A DNA stretch of 36,807 bases from Bacteroidales bacterium (GTDB taxonomy: Bacteria; Bacteroidota; Bacteroidia; Bacteroidales; UBA932): NCBI GenBank assembly GCA_024398125.1, contig JAKSJO010000024.1, positions 1-36,807 of the forward strand, given 5' to 3'. The first letter of the stretch is position 1; each line of letters begins with the position of its first letter. This document shows, piece after piece, positions 25,261 through 28,645 of the stretch. A program made the translations under genes and the position numbers. Under the pieces are notes generated by a model. The model did not search any database. It saw only the letters and a program-made list of their open reading frames with translations, and was not told the DNA's origin.

Positions 25261-25345
25261 TGGAATGATCTCTGACCCATTCCACAAATGTAACAACTAT
25301 TCGCCTTTATTTGACGGATTCCGGGAAATACTGTGTTTATATTTG
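25261..25345 (+). promoter_or_regulatory. Control region of the ECF sigma operon
   Basis: Three elements are stacked. The inverted repeat TGGAATG-N10-CATTCCA occupies 25261-25284. TGTAACA at 25289-25295 contains the AAC core often seen in ECF-dependent -35 elements. TATATTTG at 25338-25345 is an exact housekeeping -7 element. This fits a basal promoter plus an autoregulated one, but the ECF promoter is only a guess. Confidence 0.45.
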
Positions 25346-25362: not shown

Positions 25363-25926
25363 GTGATCGAGCTGTTGGATGAAAAAAGATTAGCCGAACT
25401 CTGTTCCGAGCATGACAGAAAGGCGGAAGAGGAACTGTATACACGGTATGCAGGGAGGCTTTTTGCGCTCTGCCTTCGATACAGCAGCAATCCCGACGAC
25501 GCCAAGGACTTGATGCAGGATGCTTTGATCAAGGCGCTGAACAGCATCGGGTCGTACAGATACCGCGGCAACGGTTCGCTGTACGCATGGATCAAGAGGA
25601 TAACGGTCAACATGGCCATCAACAGGATAACCCGCCAGAAGATCCACTTCATCCCATTTGACGTTTTCAGGATGGACAGAGCCGACGACACGGATGACGA
25701 TTCTGCCGAGATGGTACCGGAAAAAGTTCTGCTGAAGATGATATCTGAACTATCCCCGATGAAACGGGCTGTTTTCAACATGTTCTGCATCGATGGCTAT
25801 TCCCACATGGAAATCGCACAGCAGCTCGGAATAACCGAGAACGGTTCAGCCAGCATCCTGTCAAAAGCAAAGGCACAGCTCAAGAGACAGATTAAAGACT
25901 ACATCAGGAAATCGGAATTGCAATGA
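25363..25926 (+). CDS. ECF-type RNA polymerase sigma factor
   Basis: The protein is about 187 residues from the GTG at 25363. A GTG at 25333 would place the TATATTTG promoter inside the gene and is unlikely. Region sigma-2 is seen as YTRYAGRLFALCLRYSSNPDDAKDLMQDALIKAL with the following GSLYAWIKRITVNMAINR. Region sigma-4 is LSPMKRAVFNMFCIDGYSHMEIAQQLGITENGSASILSKAKAQL, an HTH that reads the -35 element. Sigma-1.1 and sigma-3 are absent, as expected for ECF factors. The stop overlaps the next ATG (ATGA), so the sigma factor and the barrel-bearing partner are co-translated. The partner is its likely anti-sigma factor. Confidence 0.93.
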   Translation: MIELLDEKRLAELCSEHDRKAEEELYTRYAGRLFALCLRYSSNPDDAKDLMQDALIKALNSIGSYRYRGNGSLYAWIKRITVNMAINRITRQKIHFIPFDVFRMDRADDTDDDSAEMVPEKVLLKMISELSPMKRAVFNMFCIDGYSHMEIAQQLGITENGSASILSKAKAQLKRQIKDYIRKSELQ

Positions 25927-27149
25927 AACGCTTTGAAGACATAGTCAAAGATAAACTGGAGACGTTCGAAGAAACGCTTCCGGAAACCGAGCTTGCCGAT
26001 TTCATGGCAAGACTTGATGAGTCACGTTCTTCATCAGCTCCAAGTCCGGCCAGGAAGAGCCGCCGCAGCATCTGGAACATCGCGACTCCTGCCGTTGCCG
26101 CCAGTCTGCTTGCAGTTTTTGTACTGACCAGACCGCAAGGTACGGAAGGTAATCTAGCCAATAATGAGCCTATGGCAGTCAACGAGTCTGTTGCAATCAT
26201 TGAAGAATCCGAGCCTATTGAACTGTTGGCTCAGGCTGATATTGCCGTCAATAAAGCATCTGACACTGATTCTATCGTGGATTCAATCGCTGAAGAAACC
26301 ACACCTGATTCTGCGCCTGAAGTGGCTCCATTTATTGATTCGGATAGTGTTTCCGGGGAAGCCGATGACAGCCAGATGGATTCGTCAACATCAAATGACG
26401 GTCCGTCGATCTTCGATACGGAAGACATTAAATCAGCTGGCAGCTATTCTGATAATCAGATATATATCAATGTCGTCAAGGGCGCGGCAAGCGCTATCAG
26501 CACAGTATCCCTGGTTACAGTCATGAGCTCGGTCGGAGGCTTCTTCACCCGCGATTATTCTTGTGACATAGGAGATCTCGGCCAACGTCCCGACGATCCA
26601 CCATACTCTGGCACTCCAGGAGAACAATATCCCGACGATCTCCCGAGCTACCCTGGCGAATTGGGTCCTGGTTACCCTTGGCCTAGGTTGGTCAAAGATT
26701 ATTTGCCTTTGACAATCGGCGCAAGTCTTCGCTGGAATTTTGCGGACCGACTGTCATTAACCACCGGTCTGGACTATAGCCGCTACAAGTCTGTTTATGA
26801 GACAAAGGGTAGGACTTTTGATCTGACAAGAGCGAGTGTCGGCATTCCTGTAAGGGTTGACTATTCCTTTGTCCGATCCAGGTTGATTGACCTTTATCTT
26901 GGTGTCGGCGGATCTGCCGAATGCTTTGTGTCAATTAATGTTGACGGTAGGAAGTCAAGTGAGGCCGGGCTGCTGATATCTGCTCAGGCTGCGAGTGGCA
27001 TGCAGGTAAATATTACAAAACACATCGGCGCCTACGTCGAGCCACGACTGACCTGGGTTCTTCCATCAGTCTTATATGATGACGACCCGTTCAGAAGAGA
27101 TCATCCCCTTTTCTTGAAACTGGCAAGCGGCATTAGGTATTCCTTTTAA
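25923..27149 (+). CDS. Probable dual-membrane-spanning anti-sigma factor
   Basis: The 408-residue protein has four parts. Residues 1-45 are a charged cytoplasmic region that could bind the sigma factor. RKSRR and a single hydrophobic helix (about 44-68) look like an inner-membrane anchor. Residues about 70-255 are acidic, low in order and rich in Ser, Asp and Pro, with repeated PDD/YPG motifs, long enough to cross the periplasm. From about 257 alternating strands (TIGASLRWNFADRLSLTTGL) end in IRYSF, a barrel-type C-terminus. This matches the Dma anti-sigma design described in Bacteroides thetaiotaomicron, in which one polypeptide spans both membranes. A second hydrophobic stretch near residues 184-205 is unexplained. 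No zinc anti-sigma motif is present. Confidence 0.8.
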   Translation: MKRFEDIVKDKLETFEETLPETELADFMARLDESRSSSAPSPARKSRRSIWNIATPAVAASLLAVFVLTRPQGTEGNLANNEPMAVNESVAIIEESEPIELLAQADIAVNKASDTDSIVDSIAEETTPDSAPEVAPFIDSDSVSGEADDSQMDSSTSNDGPSIFDTEDIKSAGSYSDNQIYINVVKGAASAISTVSLVTVMSSVGGFFTRDYSCDIGDLGQRPDDPPYSGTPGEQYPDDLPSYPGELGPGYPWPRLVKDYLPLTIGASLRWNFADRLSLTTGLDYSRYKSVYETKGRTFDLTRASVGIPVRVDYSFVRSRLIDLYLGVGGSAECFVSINVDGRKSSEAGLLISAQAASGMQVNITKHIGAYVEPRLTWVLPSVLYDDDPFRRDHPLFLKLASGIRYSF

Positions 27150-27286: not shown

Positions 27287-27994
27287 TCAGTCGCGACTGG
27301 TATCGGAGTCAAGGGCGTTGGAGTTCGTGGCGGTGAGGGCAATCCAGTCGATGCTTTCGGAGTCGGTAAAGATGTCGAACCGGACTGTGCCGCGAAAGAG
27401 GATCCCTGTATTGCTGATGCTGGCGCCGTACGCCGAGGTCTCATAAAGTCTGTCGACTGACTCGACACAAAGCGGGTTGCTCATGATGAAAGCACCATTC
27501 TGGGTATACAGCCTGGTCTGCATTGCATTGTGTTTATCGACAATACCATCGAACGACACGGCCATTTCAGCAAGGAATCCATTTTCATCGTAGATCGGCT
27601 CGATTGAAATGCCATCAGATCTCGTCCATGTCTTGCCATCCGAAGACAGATTCCAGCCGCTTCCCCATTTATTTGAAGACAATGGAAGTCCCAATGTATA
27701 TACCTCGTCAATTACCGGTCCGAAAAAGATATCATCCGCCTTCAGCCTGATTTTACCGGATGCGTTATACTTCTCCATCAACTCTGACTTCGCTGCTTCG
27801 TCTGCGACCTGATACTCATCGATAAAAAGGTATGCAGCCAGCTCATATGCCGGCAGAACAAGGCTTGAACAGAGCTTGCTTTCCGCATATTCAGTGAGCG
27901 ATTCCGACGTCACAGCGTTATCACGCCCGTTTTTAACGACACAGCCCGTTAATATCAGTATTACAATCAATAAAACAAATATGTTCTGCTTCAT
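27287..27994 (-). CDS. Lipoprotein of unknown function
   Basis: The 235-residue protein has a long hydrophobic signal and a lipobox ending LTGC at Cys18. The mature part is mixed alpha/beta without a domain I recognise. It has a helix-rich first third (ESLTEYAESKLCSSLVLPAYELAAYLF) and a beta-rich rest (FGPVIDEVYTLGLPLSSNKWG and following). The gene begins 12 bases after the barrel protein gene on the same strand, so they are an operon. It runs convergently toward the anti-sigma gene. It may partner the barrel protein at the outer membrane; that is inference only. Confidence 0.75.
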   Translation of the reverse strand: MKQNIFVLLIVILILTGCVVKNGRDNAVTSESLTEYAESKLCSSLVLPAYELAAYLFIDEYQVADEAAKSELMEKYNASGKIRLKADDIFFGPVIDEVYTLGLPLSSNKWGSGWNLSSDGKTWTRSDGISIEPIYDENGFLAEMAVSFDGIVDKHNAMQTRLYTQNGAFIMSNPLCVESVDRLYETSAYGASISNTGILFRGTVRFDIFTDSESIDWIALTATNSNALDSDTSRD

Positions 27995-28006
27995 AACAAA
28001 AATGTT

Positions 28007-28645
28007 TTATAGTCTTACACCAATGCCTACCATGCCTCCGAAGTACTGGGTACCGAGGCCGATTTCAGCAGTTCCATAGATCTTGCCGCCAAAGCGCAAA
28101 CCGAACGGGACAAGCTGTACCGCCGGGATTAAATCGTAATCCTTTTTGTACTTGACAGTCGTTTCGCCGTTAACCGTAATCGAAGTATGATGGCTGTCGG
28201 TAATGACGCCTAGACCGAGATTGACTGAAGAATAGAAATTGAACCTCGGTCTGTTAAGGTACTTGAATCTGAGGCCGGACATGAGCTGTACAGTCCCGTC
28301 TATGTCGCAATGGGTGTCGTTTGTAAGGATGCTGGAATGGTTCTGCCAAAGCAGATTTGTCGATAGGGTCAGCGGGACAGAGAGCCACTTCTTGACAGGC
28401 AAATCGCCAATCACTGCCATTGCGCCGGTCGACTTCATGTCCGAATAAGCGTCCCTGTAGATTGAACCAAGTGTGGGTCGCTCAAGAGCATAATCCCAAG
28501 AGAGACCAATACCGCCGAAGATGATATCCTCGACAAGCGGCCAGCCACCAAGATTGACGCTCAGACTGAATCCAGAGTCCTCCTGGGCAGCCGATTTAAC
28601 GCTCATCGCCATAATGAGTGCTATCAAACAAATAAGTCTTTTCAT
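28007..28645 (-). CDS. Small outer-membrane beta-barrel protein
   Basis: The 212-residue protein has a signal peptide (MKRLICLIALIMAMSVKSAA, cleaved before QEDSG). Alternating hydrophobic strands follow, such as FSLSVNLGGW, FNFYSSVNLGLGV and IYGTAEIGLGTQYFGGMVGIGVRL. Its size suits an 8-stranded OmpX/OmpA-like barrel, although it ends in Leu rather than Phe. A TATTTTTG -7 element lies on the minus strand at 28724-28731, leaving a leader of about 75 bases. It is co-transcribed with the lipoprotein gene downstream. The function is unknown. Confidence 0.75.
   Translation of the reverse strand: MKRLICLIALIMAMSVKSAAQEDSGFSLSVNLGGWPLVEDIIFGGIGLSWDYALERPTLGSIYRDAYSDMKSTGAMAVIGDLPVKKWLSVPLTLSTNLLWQNHSSILTNDTHCDIDGTVQLMSGLRFKYLNRPRFNFYSSVNLGLGVITDSHHTSITVNGETTVKYKKDYDLIPAVQLVPFGLRFGGKIYGTAEIGLGTQYFGGMVGIGVRL

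Follow-up and report, generated by a model that had tools for sequence, protein, structure and literature searches.

In the window, by which we mean the whole 36,807-nt stretch of Bacteroidales DNA analysed here, an ECF sigma factor gene (25363..25926, + strand; 187 aa from a GTG at 25363) is directly followed by a 408-aa anti-sigma gene (25923..27149, +). The sigma gene was recognised by Pfam matches to Sigma70_r2 (E 7.6e-16) and r4_2 (E 7.9e-11) and by its place in a sigma tree, and the anti-sigma gene by the ORF table, an AF2 model and a profile alignment with the Reo-type group of proteins. Of two in-frame starts for the sigma gene, the GTG at 25363 chosen by an earlier sequence-only reading was preferred over the longer one at GTG 25333, because the latter falls inside a conserved -10-like element and the start of the relatives is equivalent to 25363. 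The same reading had reported an ATGA stop/start overlap of the two genes, which is present at 25923..25926 (+) in both the ORF tables and the sequence. Together with the sigma domains, this overlap points to a cognate sigma factor, and the gene layout suggests a single operon. A 4-nt overlap was seen in 13 of 33 loci examined (the window and 12 others), and among the 33 barrel loci of this genome and its relatives a sigma-aligning ORF lies just upstream in 27, three are sigma-helix-barrel fusions (L003, L022, L040), and no upstream ORF was called in L020, L025 and L029.

The anti-sigma protein had been described as a short N-terminal region, one helix, a disordered linker and a C-terminal barrel, and hydropathy, the AF2 model and profile alignment agree on that order. 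The AF2 model, built from 43 aligned proteins (the window and 42 loci), has a mean pLDDT of 66 and an overall pTM of 0.48, values that vary strongly along the chain. Residues 1-49 (25923..26069, +) are predicted to be a cytosolic sigma-binding region, with helices at 2-13 and 21-36 (pLDDT ~63-79) and homology to the N-terminus of the Reo group; they are also recognisable in relatives with a swapped C-terminus. Residues 50-68 (26070..26126, +) hold the hydrophobicity peak of the protein (1.96, 19-residue Kyte-Doolittle) and are the predicted inner-membrane helix, which reaches a pLDDT of only ~51-59 in the model. The following linker, residues 69-254 (26127..26684, +), is predicted to be periplasmic and disordered, with pLDDT mostly < 50 over residues 73-250. 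The distance from helix to barrel is 188 residues in the window, close to the median of 189.5 for 48 proteins, among which linker length ranges from 152 to 382 residues. A single protein running from the cytoplasm to an outer-membrane barrel thereby appears to be the brake of a gut bacterium's gene switch, and we consider it very likely that it is a dual-membrane anti-sigma factor acting on the adjoining sigma factor.

The C-terminal barrel and the class of the pair

Structure prediction of the C-terminal region had been set beforehand as a check, and it returned a confident barrel resembling OmpA and OmpX. In the predicted outer-membrane beta-barrel domain (residues 255-408; 26685..27146, +), pLDDT is mostly > 90 from ~261 to 408, with a dip to 72 at 381-390. 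Foldseek placed OmpA, OmpX and OmpW among the best solved structures (probability 0.99-1.0, E 2e-3 to 4e-2, TM-scores by target ~0.34-0.48), with no match at E 1e-3 or better. Because the OMP_b-brl match (E 4.4e-05) lies under the Pfam gathering score, the barrel claim rests on AF2, Foldseek and the profile alignment with the Reo-type group of Bacteroides/Phocaeicola, which spans 155 columns (hhalign prob 100, E 6.8e-42). A PDB sequence search with the barrel-locus alignment gave two matches only, both in the linker region.

Seven long strands are confident in the AF2 barrel. Outer-membrane protein C-termini are normally periplasmic, and since the linker also enters from the periplasm, an even strand number is expected. 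The eighth strand, which AF2 did not place, is probably a hydrophobic stretch inside the linker at residues ~186-207 (26478..26543, +; hydropathy 1.49), a candidate first strand of the barrel. The hydropathy of this segment is >= 1.36 in all 13 window-clade proteins, <= 1.07 in all seven of the Reo group and <= 1.26 in the remaining 28. The same stretch could be read as a second inner-membrane helix, which is unlikely, and the barrel would then lie in the cytosol.

The wider family was sampled by a sigma-alignment scan of a named-genome collection, from which the best 80 of 589 loci were kept; since the scan relied on one peptide pattern, these loci are a sample. Alignment A2 holds 71 of the 80 loci plus the window and leaves out L052, L053, L066, L077, L097, L113, L118, L121 and L123, whose frames are cut, misread or late-starting. 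Alignment A3 holds 42 loci picked for barrel-like ends; L081, L100, L113, L120 and L123, outside A3, were found barrel-positive later. The barrel profile was scored against 80 proteins (79 loci and the window, L053 having no long enough ORF) and was positive in 48, of which 28 are independent because 20 of the 80 proteins had been used to build it; among the 32 others, several are cut at contig ends or misread. At E 0.01, OMP_b-brl was found in 40/72 and OMP_b-brl_2 in 36/72, with CHU_C in 7/72 and TonB_C in 2/72, the window included. Queried at 1e-5, the window anti-sigma had matches in 25 of 37 genomes of its genus (its own included) and in one of 24 others of the order, and eight of the 36 other genus genomes matched at ~5e-20 or better. 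Some genomes occur twice, under different names, among the loci of this genus survey and of the sigma-alignment scan.

In a tree of 85 sigma factors (84 different), the window falls in a set of 15 rows with support 100/97 that stands apart from the Bacteroides set; the labels were given partly by eye (PKD/CHU, an unassigned pair), and the support values are independent of them. The N-terminal regions of the two groups are related, as 13 window-clade and seven Bacteroides-type proteins aligned over 31 columns (hhalign prob 91.6; as a single comparison, E 8.2e-7). The latter group includes L090, the locus of P. vulgatus ATCC 8482, in which a NigD gene (PF17415, 1.1e-31) lies beside sigma and anti-sigma; from this neighbour we infer that L090 is the EcfO-Reo locus. 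In the available text on EcfO-Reo from Bacteroides fragilis and Phocaeicola vulgatus (PMC9308784, PMC13114119), nigD adjoins the pair, the ECF sigma gene comes just before the anti-sigma gene, as in the window, and Reo has, like the window protein, a cytosolic region, one inner-membrane helix, a long periplasmic part and a C-terminal barrel. Both ends of the protein are homologous between the Reo-type group and the window, and a promoter-like site of similar layout and spacing is present in both. The window differs in its separate sigma-tree clade, in a -35-like element GACGNATT instead of the Reo-type GCAGTATT, in the absence of nigD at the locus and in the pre-barrel hydrophobic segment, which belongs to the window clade and not to the Reo group.

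The sequence-only reading had likened the pair to the Dma/Das pairs of Bacteroides thetaiotaomicron. This assignment is upheld by the profile alignment to the Reo-type group including L090, which covers the barrel and the N-terminal region, while the link of those pairs to vesicles found no support at the window locus. With Dma1/Das1 and Dma2/Das2 the window shares class and operon order, a likeness set by their available description (PMC13088901), and the vesicle or PUL evidence attached to them is absent here. By the features compared, the window pair belongs to the Reo/Dma class, with binding to the sigma factor and an outer-membrane location predicted from homology and the model. The pair is sound and well conserved, and its class is a known and recent one, not a new kind.

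Five such systems are present in this 2.3-Mb genome, namely the window (C17), pairs on C3, C46 and C47, and a fusion on C11, and the barrel profile matched all four of the other proteins (E 7.8e-35, 6.8e-9, 3.3e-30 and 2e-29, as listed for C3, C46, C47 and C11); Pfam gave no family in the C46 anti-sigma. They account for five of the seven sigma matches of the genome, those on C1 and C8 appearing to lie outside. The fusion (L003:370-1986) is a 538-aa sigma-helix-linker-barrel protein like Dma3, in which a sigma domain is fused to the barrel protein, unlike the two genes of the window; L022 and L040 are similar to it. In L003 and L040 the helix follows almost directly after the sigma domain, and a separate anti-sigma region is absent. 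On C46 (L008), nigD, an ECF sigma gene and a barrel anti-sigma gene stand in tandem, with the pair directly after nigD. Because nigD adjoins this pair, the C46 system and not the window is the nigD-linked one, and the window as the genome's nigD-linked EcfO/Reo counterpart was rejected. No nigD is adjacent to the window pair or co-regulated with it, both NigD matches lying elsewhere (the second, weaker one on C6) and no second promoter of the window type being found at one mismatch.

A conserved promoter-like site and its predicted outputs

Upstream of the sigma gene, at 25313..25340 (+), lies a predicted autoregulatory ECF promoter, GACGGATT-N14-GTTTAT, recognised by clade conservation and by a profile hit; its -35-like element is GACGNATT. 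Among the 20 clade loci, 16 carry the pattern GACGNNTT-N14-GTT no more than 250 nt ahead of the sigma gene, and L052, L059 and L065 have it ~550-620 nt ahead, which gives 19/20 and leaves L050 as the only clade locus without it, whereas it was found within 250 nt in 0/60 of the other loci. In a crude shuffle control (a two-base block shuffle, with the strict pattern drawn from the same 80 loci), 26 strict sites in the 80 loci compare with a mean of 4.7 and a maximum of 10 over 20 shuffles. At the same place, seven of eight Bacteroides loci checked carry GCAGTATT-N14-[AG]TTTA, L097 being without it. Before the divergent nigD of L090, GCAGTAAA-N14-ATTTAA can be seen by eye, and the pattern itself gives no match there.

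In its own genome the window site is the sole match, no second site of this type being found at one mismatch or fewer. A profile search in which 150 of 471 candidates were scored, and of whose model the window site is itself a part, gave this site 23.4 bits (E 1.3e-4) and the next 11.7 bits (E 0.70), with no significant match beyond the window site among the 150; weaker sites could be missed, since 150/471 were scored. In eight relatives, 16 sites were found at E 0.05 or better. Nine of these precede the sigma/anti-sigma operon, at least seven of them being in the model and two (L170, L175) new. The other seven lie elsewhere: those of L171, L173, L176 and L178 directly before lipoprotein-like genes, as judged by N-termini, and those of L172, L177 and L179 not clearly so. 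The model, R1, contains 29 sites, at least seven of them from the genomes searched (L012, L013, L014, L016, L017, L060 (= L018) and L064 (= L038)). From these positions, the sigma factor is predicted to act on its own operon and, in relatives, on a few lipoprotein genes, a theme like that of NigD in Bacteroides. Given the conservation of the site, positive autoregulation of the sigma operon is likely.

Some neighbouring genes are also worth recording. Serpin genes immediately adjoin sigma/anti-sigma pairs at L002:888-4012 (C3 region), L054:5732-6967, L065:5753-6988 and L069:5749-6984, and on C3 GCAGTATT-N14-GTTTA sites stand before the serpin and before a lipoprotein gene downstream of the anti-sigma. 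In the window, a lipoprotein gene and a 212-aa outer-membrane-protein-like gene (27287-28645, -) converge on the anti-sigma gene. Their membership in the system found no support, as they are convergent and have no significant Pfam family, and the 212-aa protein did not match the barrel profile (E 0.36).

Exchange of the envelope end in a sister clade

The sister clade of the window clade comprises six loci (support 100/91 in the sigma tree), all six with the promoter pattern. In the five compared, the N-terminal region and helix share 24-25 identities with the window in 64-65 aligned residues, which is similar to the 21/59 of the more distant L090; L050 of the window clade has 32/65. None of the six, however, ends in a barrel. 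The C-terminal domain is TonB_C in L056 and L062 (Pfam, 9.1e-19 and 6.1e-19; NCBIfam tonB_Cterm above cutoff). Carboxypeptidase-regulatory domains (2.9e-20) are found in L068 together with a weak Plug match (0.042), another weak Plug match (0.0013) is found in L061, and L058 shows nothing convincing. L053:4543-4839, a locus syntenic with the TonB-type L062, encodes 98 aa only, with the N-terminal region, the helix and a short tail. Farther out, in Flavobacteriales and others, PKD/CHU_C or short C-termini are found. The TonB-ended anti-sigma genes lie at L056:3747-4436, L062:3102-3821, L184-L186 and L194-L200, adjacent to an ECF sigma gene that has a promoter of the window type.

A fault in a single assembly does not explain the TonB type, because 10 of 37 genomes of one genus hold a match over the full query, the nine others being 52-60% identical to L056. 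Each of the ten proteins scores above the TonB_C cutoff, and the promoter pattern is present at every one of their loci. A search of the window's genus gave matches in 149/151 genomes; those listed all start from query residue 57 or later, in the linker/TonB end, as with ordinary TonB, and none among them is a TonB-type anti-sigma with the N-terminal region. For L056, AF2 with a single sequence as input reached a pLDDT of 42.8, too low for the model to be of use.

FecI/FecR, a system of ECF sigma, membrane anti-sigma and outer-membrane input, and VreI/VreR/VreA resemble the window in these three elements, but in both the receptor and the anti-sigma are separate, whereas in the window one chain is predicted across both membranes. 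In the sister clade, unlike either, the TonB domain and the anti-sigma form one fused protein. A domain of VreA is expected to be TolA/TonB-like in the available text on that system (PMC2729926). With narrow search terms, we found no description of an anti-sigma/TonB fusion in the open-access literature, most subscription papers lying outside it. Sigma, promoter, cytosolic region and helix are kept across the two clades, and the envelope end is a barrel, a TonB C-terminal domain, carboxypeptidase-regulatory/plug domains, another end or none. It is tempting, if still tentative, to see the former as a fixed chassis with an exchangeable sensor end. If this is true, a TonB-ended anti-sigma would link the release of sigma directly with TonB-dependent transporters, replacing the FecR/receptor pair; that contact with such transporters is the input is a guess.

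Two odd loci are noted besides. L066:3974-5527 joins, in frame, a sigma gene cut in region 4 to the latter half of the helix plus the barrel; it was dropped as a Dma3-like fusion, being without the region 4 end and the cytosolic region, and was taken for a deletion or an assembly fault. L083:4639-5817 begins like an anti-sigma factor, with its N-terminus and helix, and continues into a partial GH88 glycosidase domain, a possible misassembly.

Possible mechanism and meaning for the Bacteroidetes

The pair probably serves as a self-amplifying sentinel of the outer membrane, within the Reo/Dma class. As long as conditions are good, the anti-sigma would be anchored in the inner membrane, the BAM machine would have placed its barrel in the outer membrane, and its short N-terminal region would hold the sigma factor. 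If the assembly or integrity of the outer membrane breaks down, the barrel would be left uninserted or perturbed, and because it depends on BAM, such a failure would leave an exposed, unassembled chain for proteases to cleave. The leftover helix stub would then be cut and the freed sigma factor would use the GACGNATT-N14-GTTTAT promoter to transcribe the operon that encodes it, amplifying itself. An extended linker of ~186 residues is far longer than the periplasm is wide, and this slack speaks against a mere pull on the chain and in favour of proteases cutting it when it is exposed and unassembled. In the available text on EcfO-Reo (PMC9308784, PMC13114119), loss of the P. vulgatus anti-sigma activates the sigma regulon, and the toxin BcpT and the BamA inhibitor bacteroidetocin A induce ecfO-reo, an induction that the sentinel model fits, as it does the slack linker. 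Barrel assembly followed by proteolysis is put forward as the trigger with some hesitation. It is not the sole trigger for the class, because the sister clade keeps the sigma system without a barrel and must read something else.

It is rather unlikely that the barrel is instead a ligand receptor for a glycan or peptide outside, in which a conformational change and not failed assembly frees the sigma factor. Sensing of an unknown glycan by Dma2 is hypothesised in the available text of its authors (PMC13088901), and a stretch preceding the first confidently modelled strand, which may form an outer loop, is rich in Pro in the window and differs from one relative to another, but a disordered linker of this length would be a poor mechanical relay. 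A reading in which host or microbial proteases are sensed because they cut the periplasmic or surface portion, inhibitors being the output in some relatives, seems improbable. It draws on serpin genes placed 13-19 nt downstream of the anti-sigma in 3/20 clade loci (L054, L065, L069), and on the C3 paralogue, where one of the genome's two serpin genes lies 3 nt ahead of the sigma gene and is itself preceded by the GCAGTATT-N14-GTTTA site. Serpins beside four such systems hint at protease-linked envelope stress, yet the window locus has none and they may be output only. Least probable is that helix 50-68 is a signal peptide or inner-membrane anchor only and the barrel never at the outer membrane, leaving an ordinary single-membrane anti-sigma or plain outer-membrane protein: the low AF2 confidence of the helix, the 98-aa L053 and the commonness of non-barrel C-termini (the 32/80, several cut or misread) are outweighed by the 49 residues with invariant positions before the helix, the confident AF2 barrel and the natural sigma-helix-barrel fusions.

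For the sentinel reading and for the class at large, a sensor end that is swapped while the rest is kept raises the question of whether the sigma factor is released by barrel assembly, TonB contact or proteolysis. This modular exchange, the TonB-ended anti-sigma above all, is the part that a specialist may not expect. According to the available text of a coevolution study (PMC7406223), a class I anti-sigma is found nearby for only 6% of Bacteroidetes ECF sigma factors, compared with 32% over all phyla; the study suggests that anti-sigma factors of other classes may prevail in the Bacteroidetes. With five systems in one 2.3-Mb genome, the dual-membrane class is a candidate for these other anti-sigma factors.
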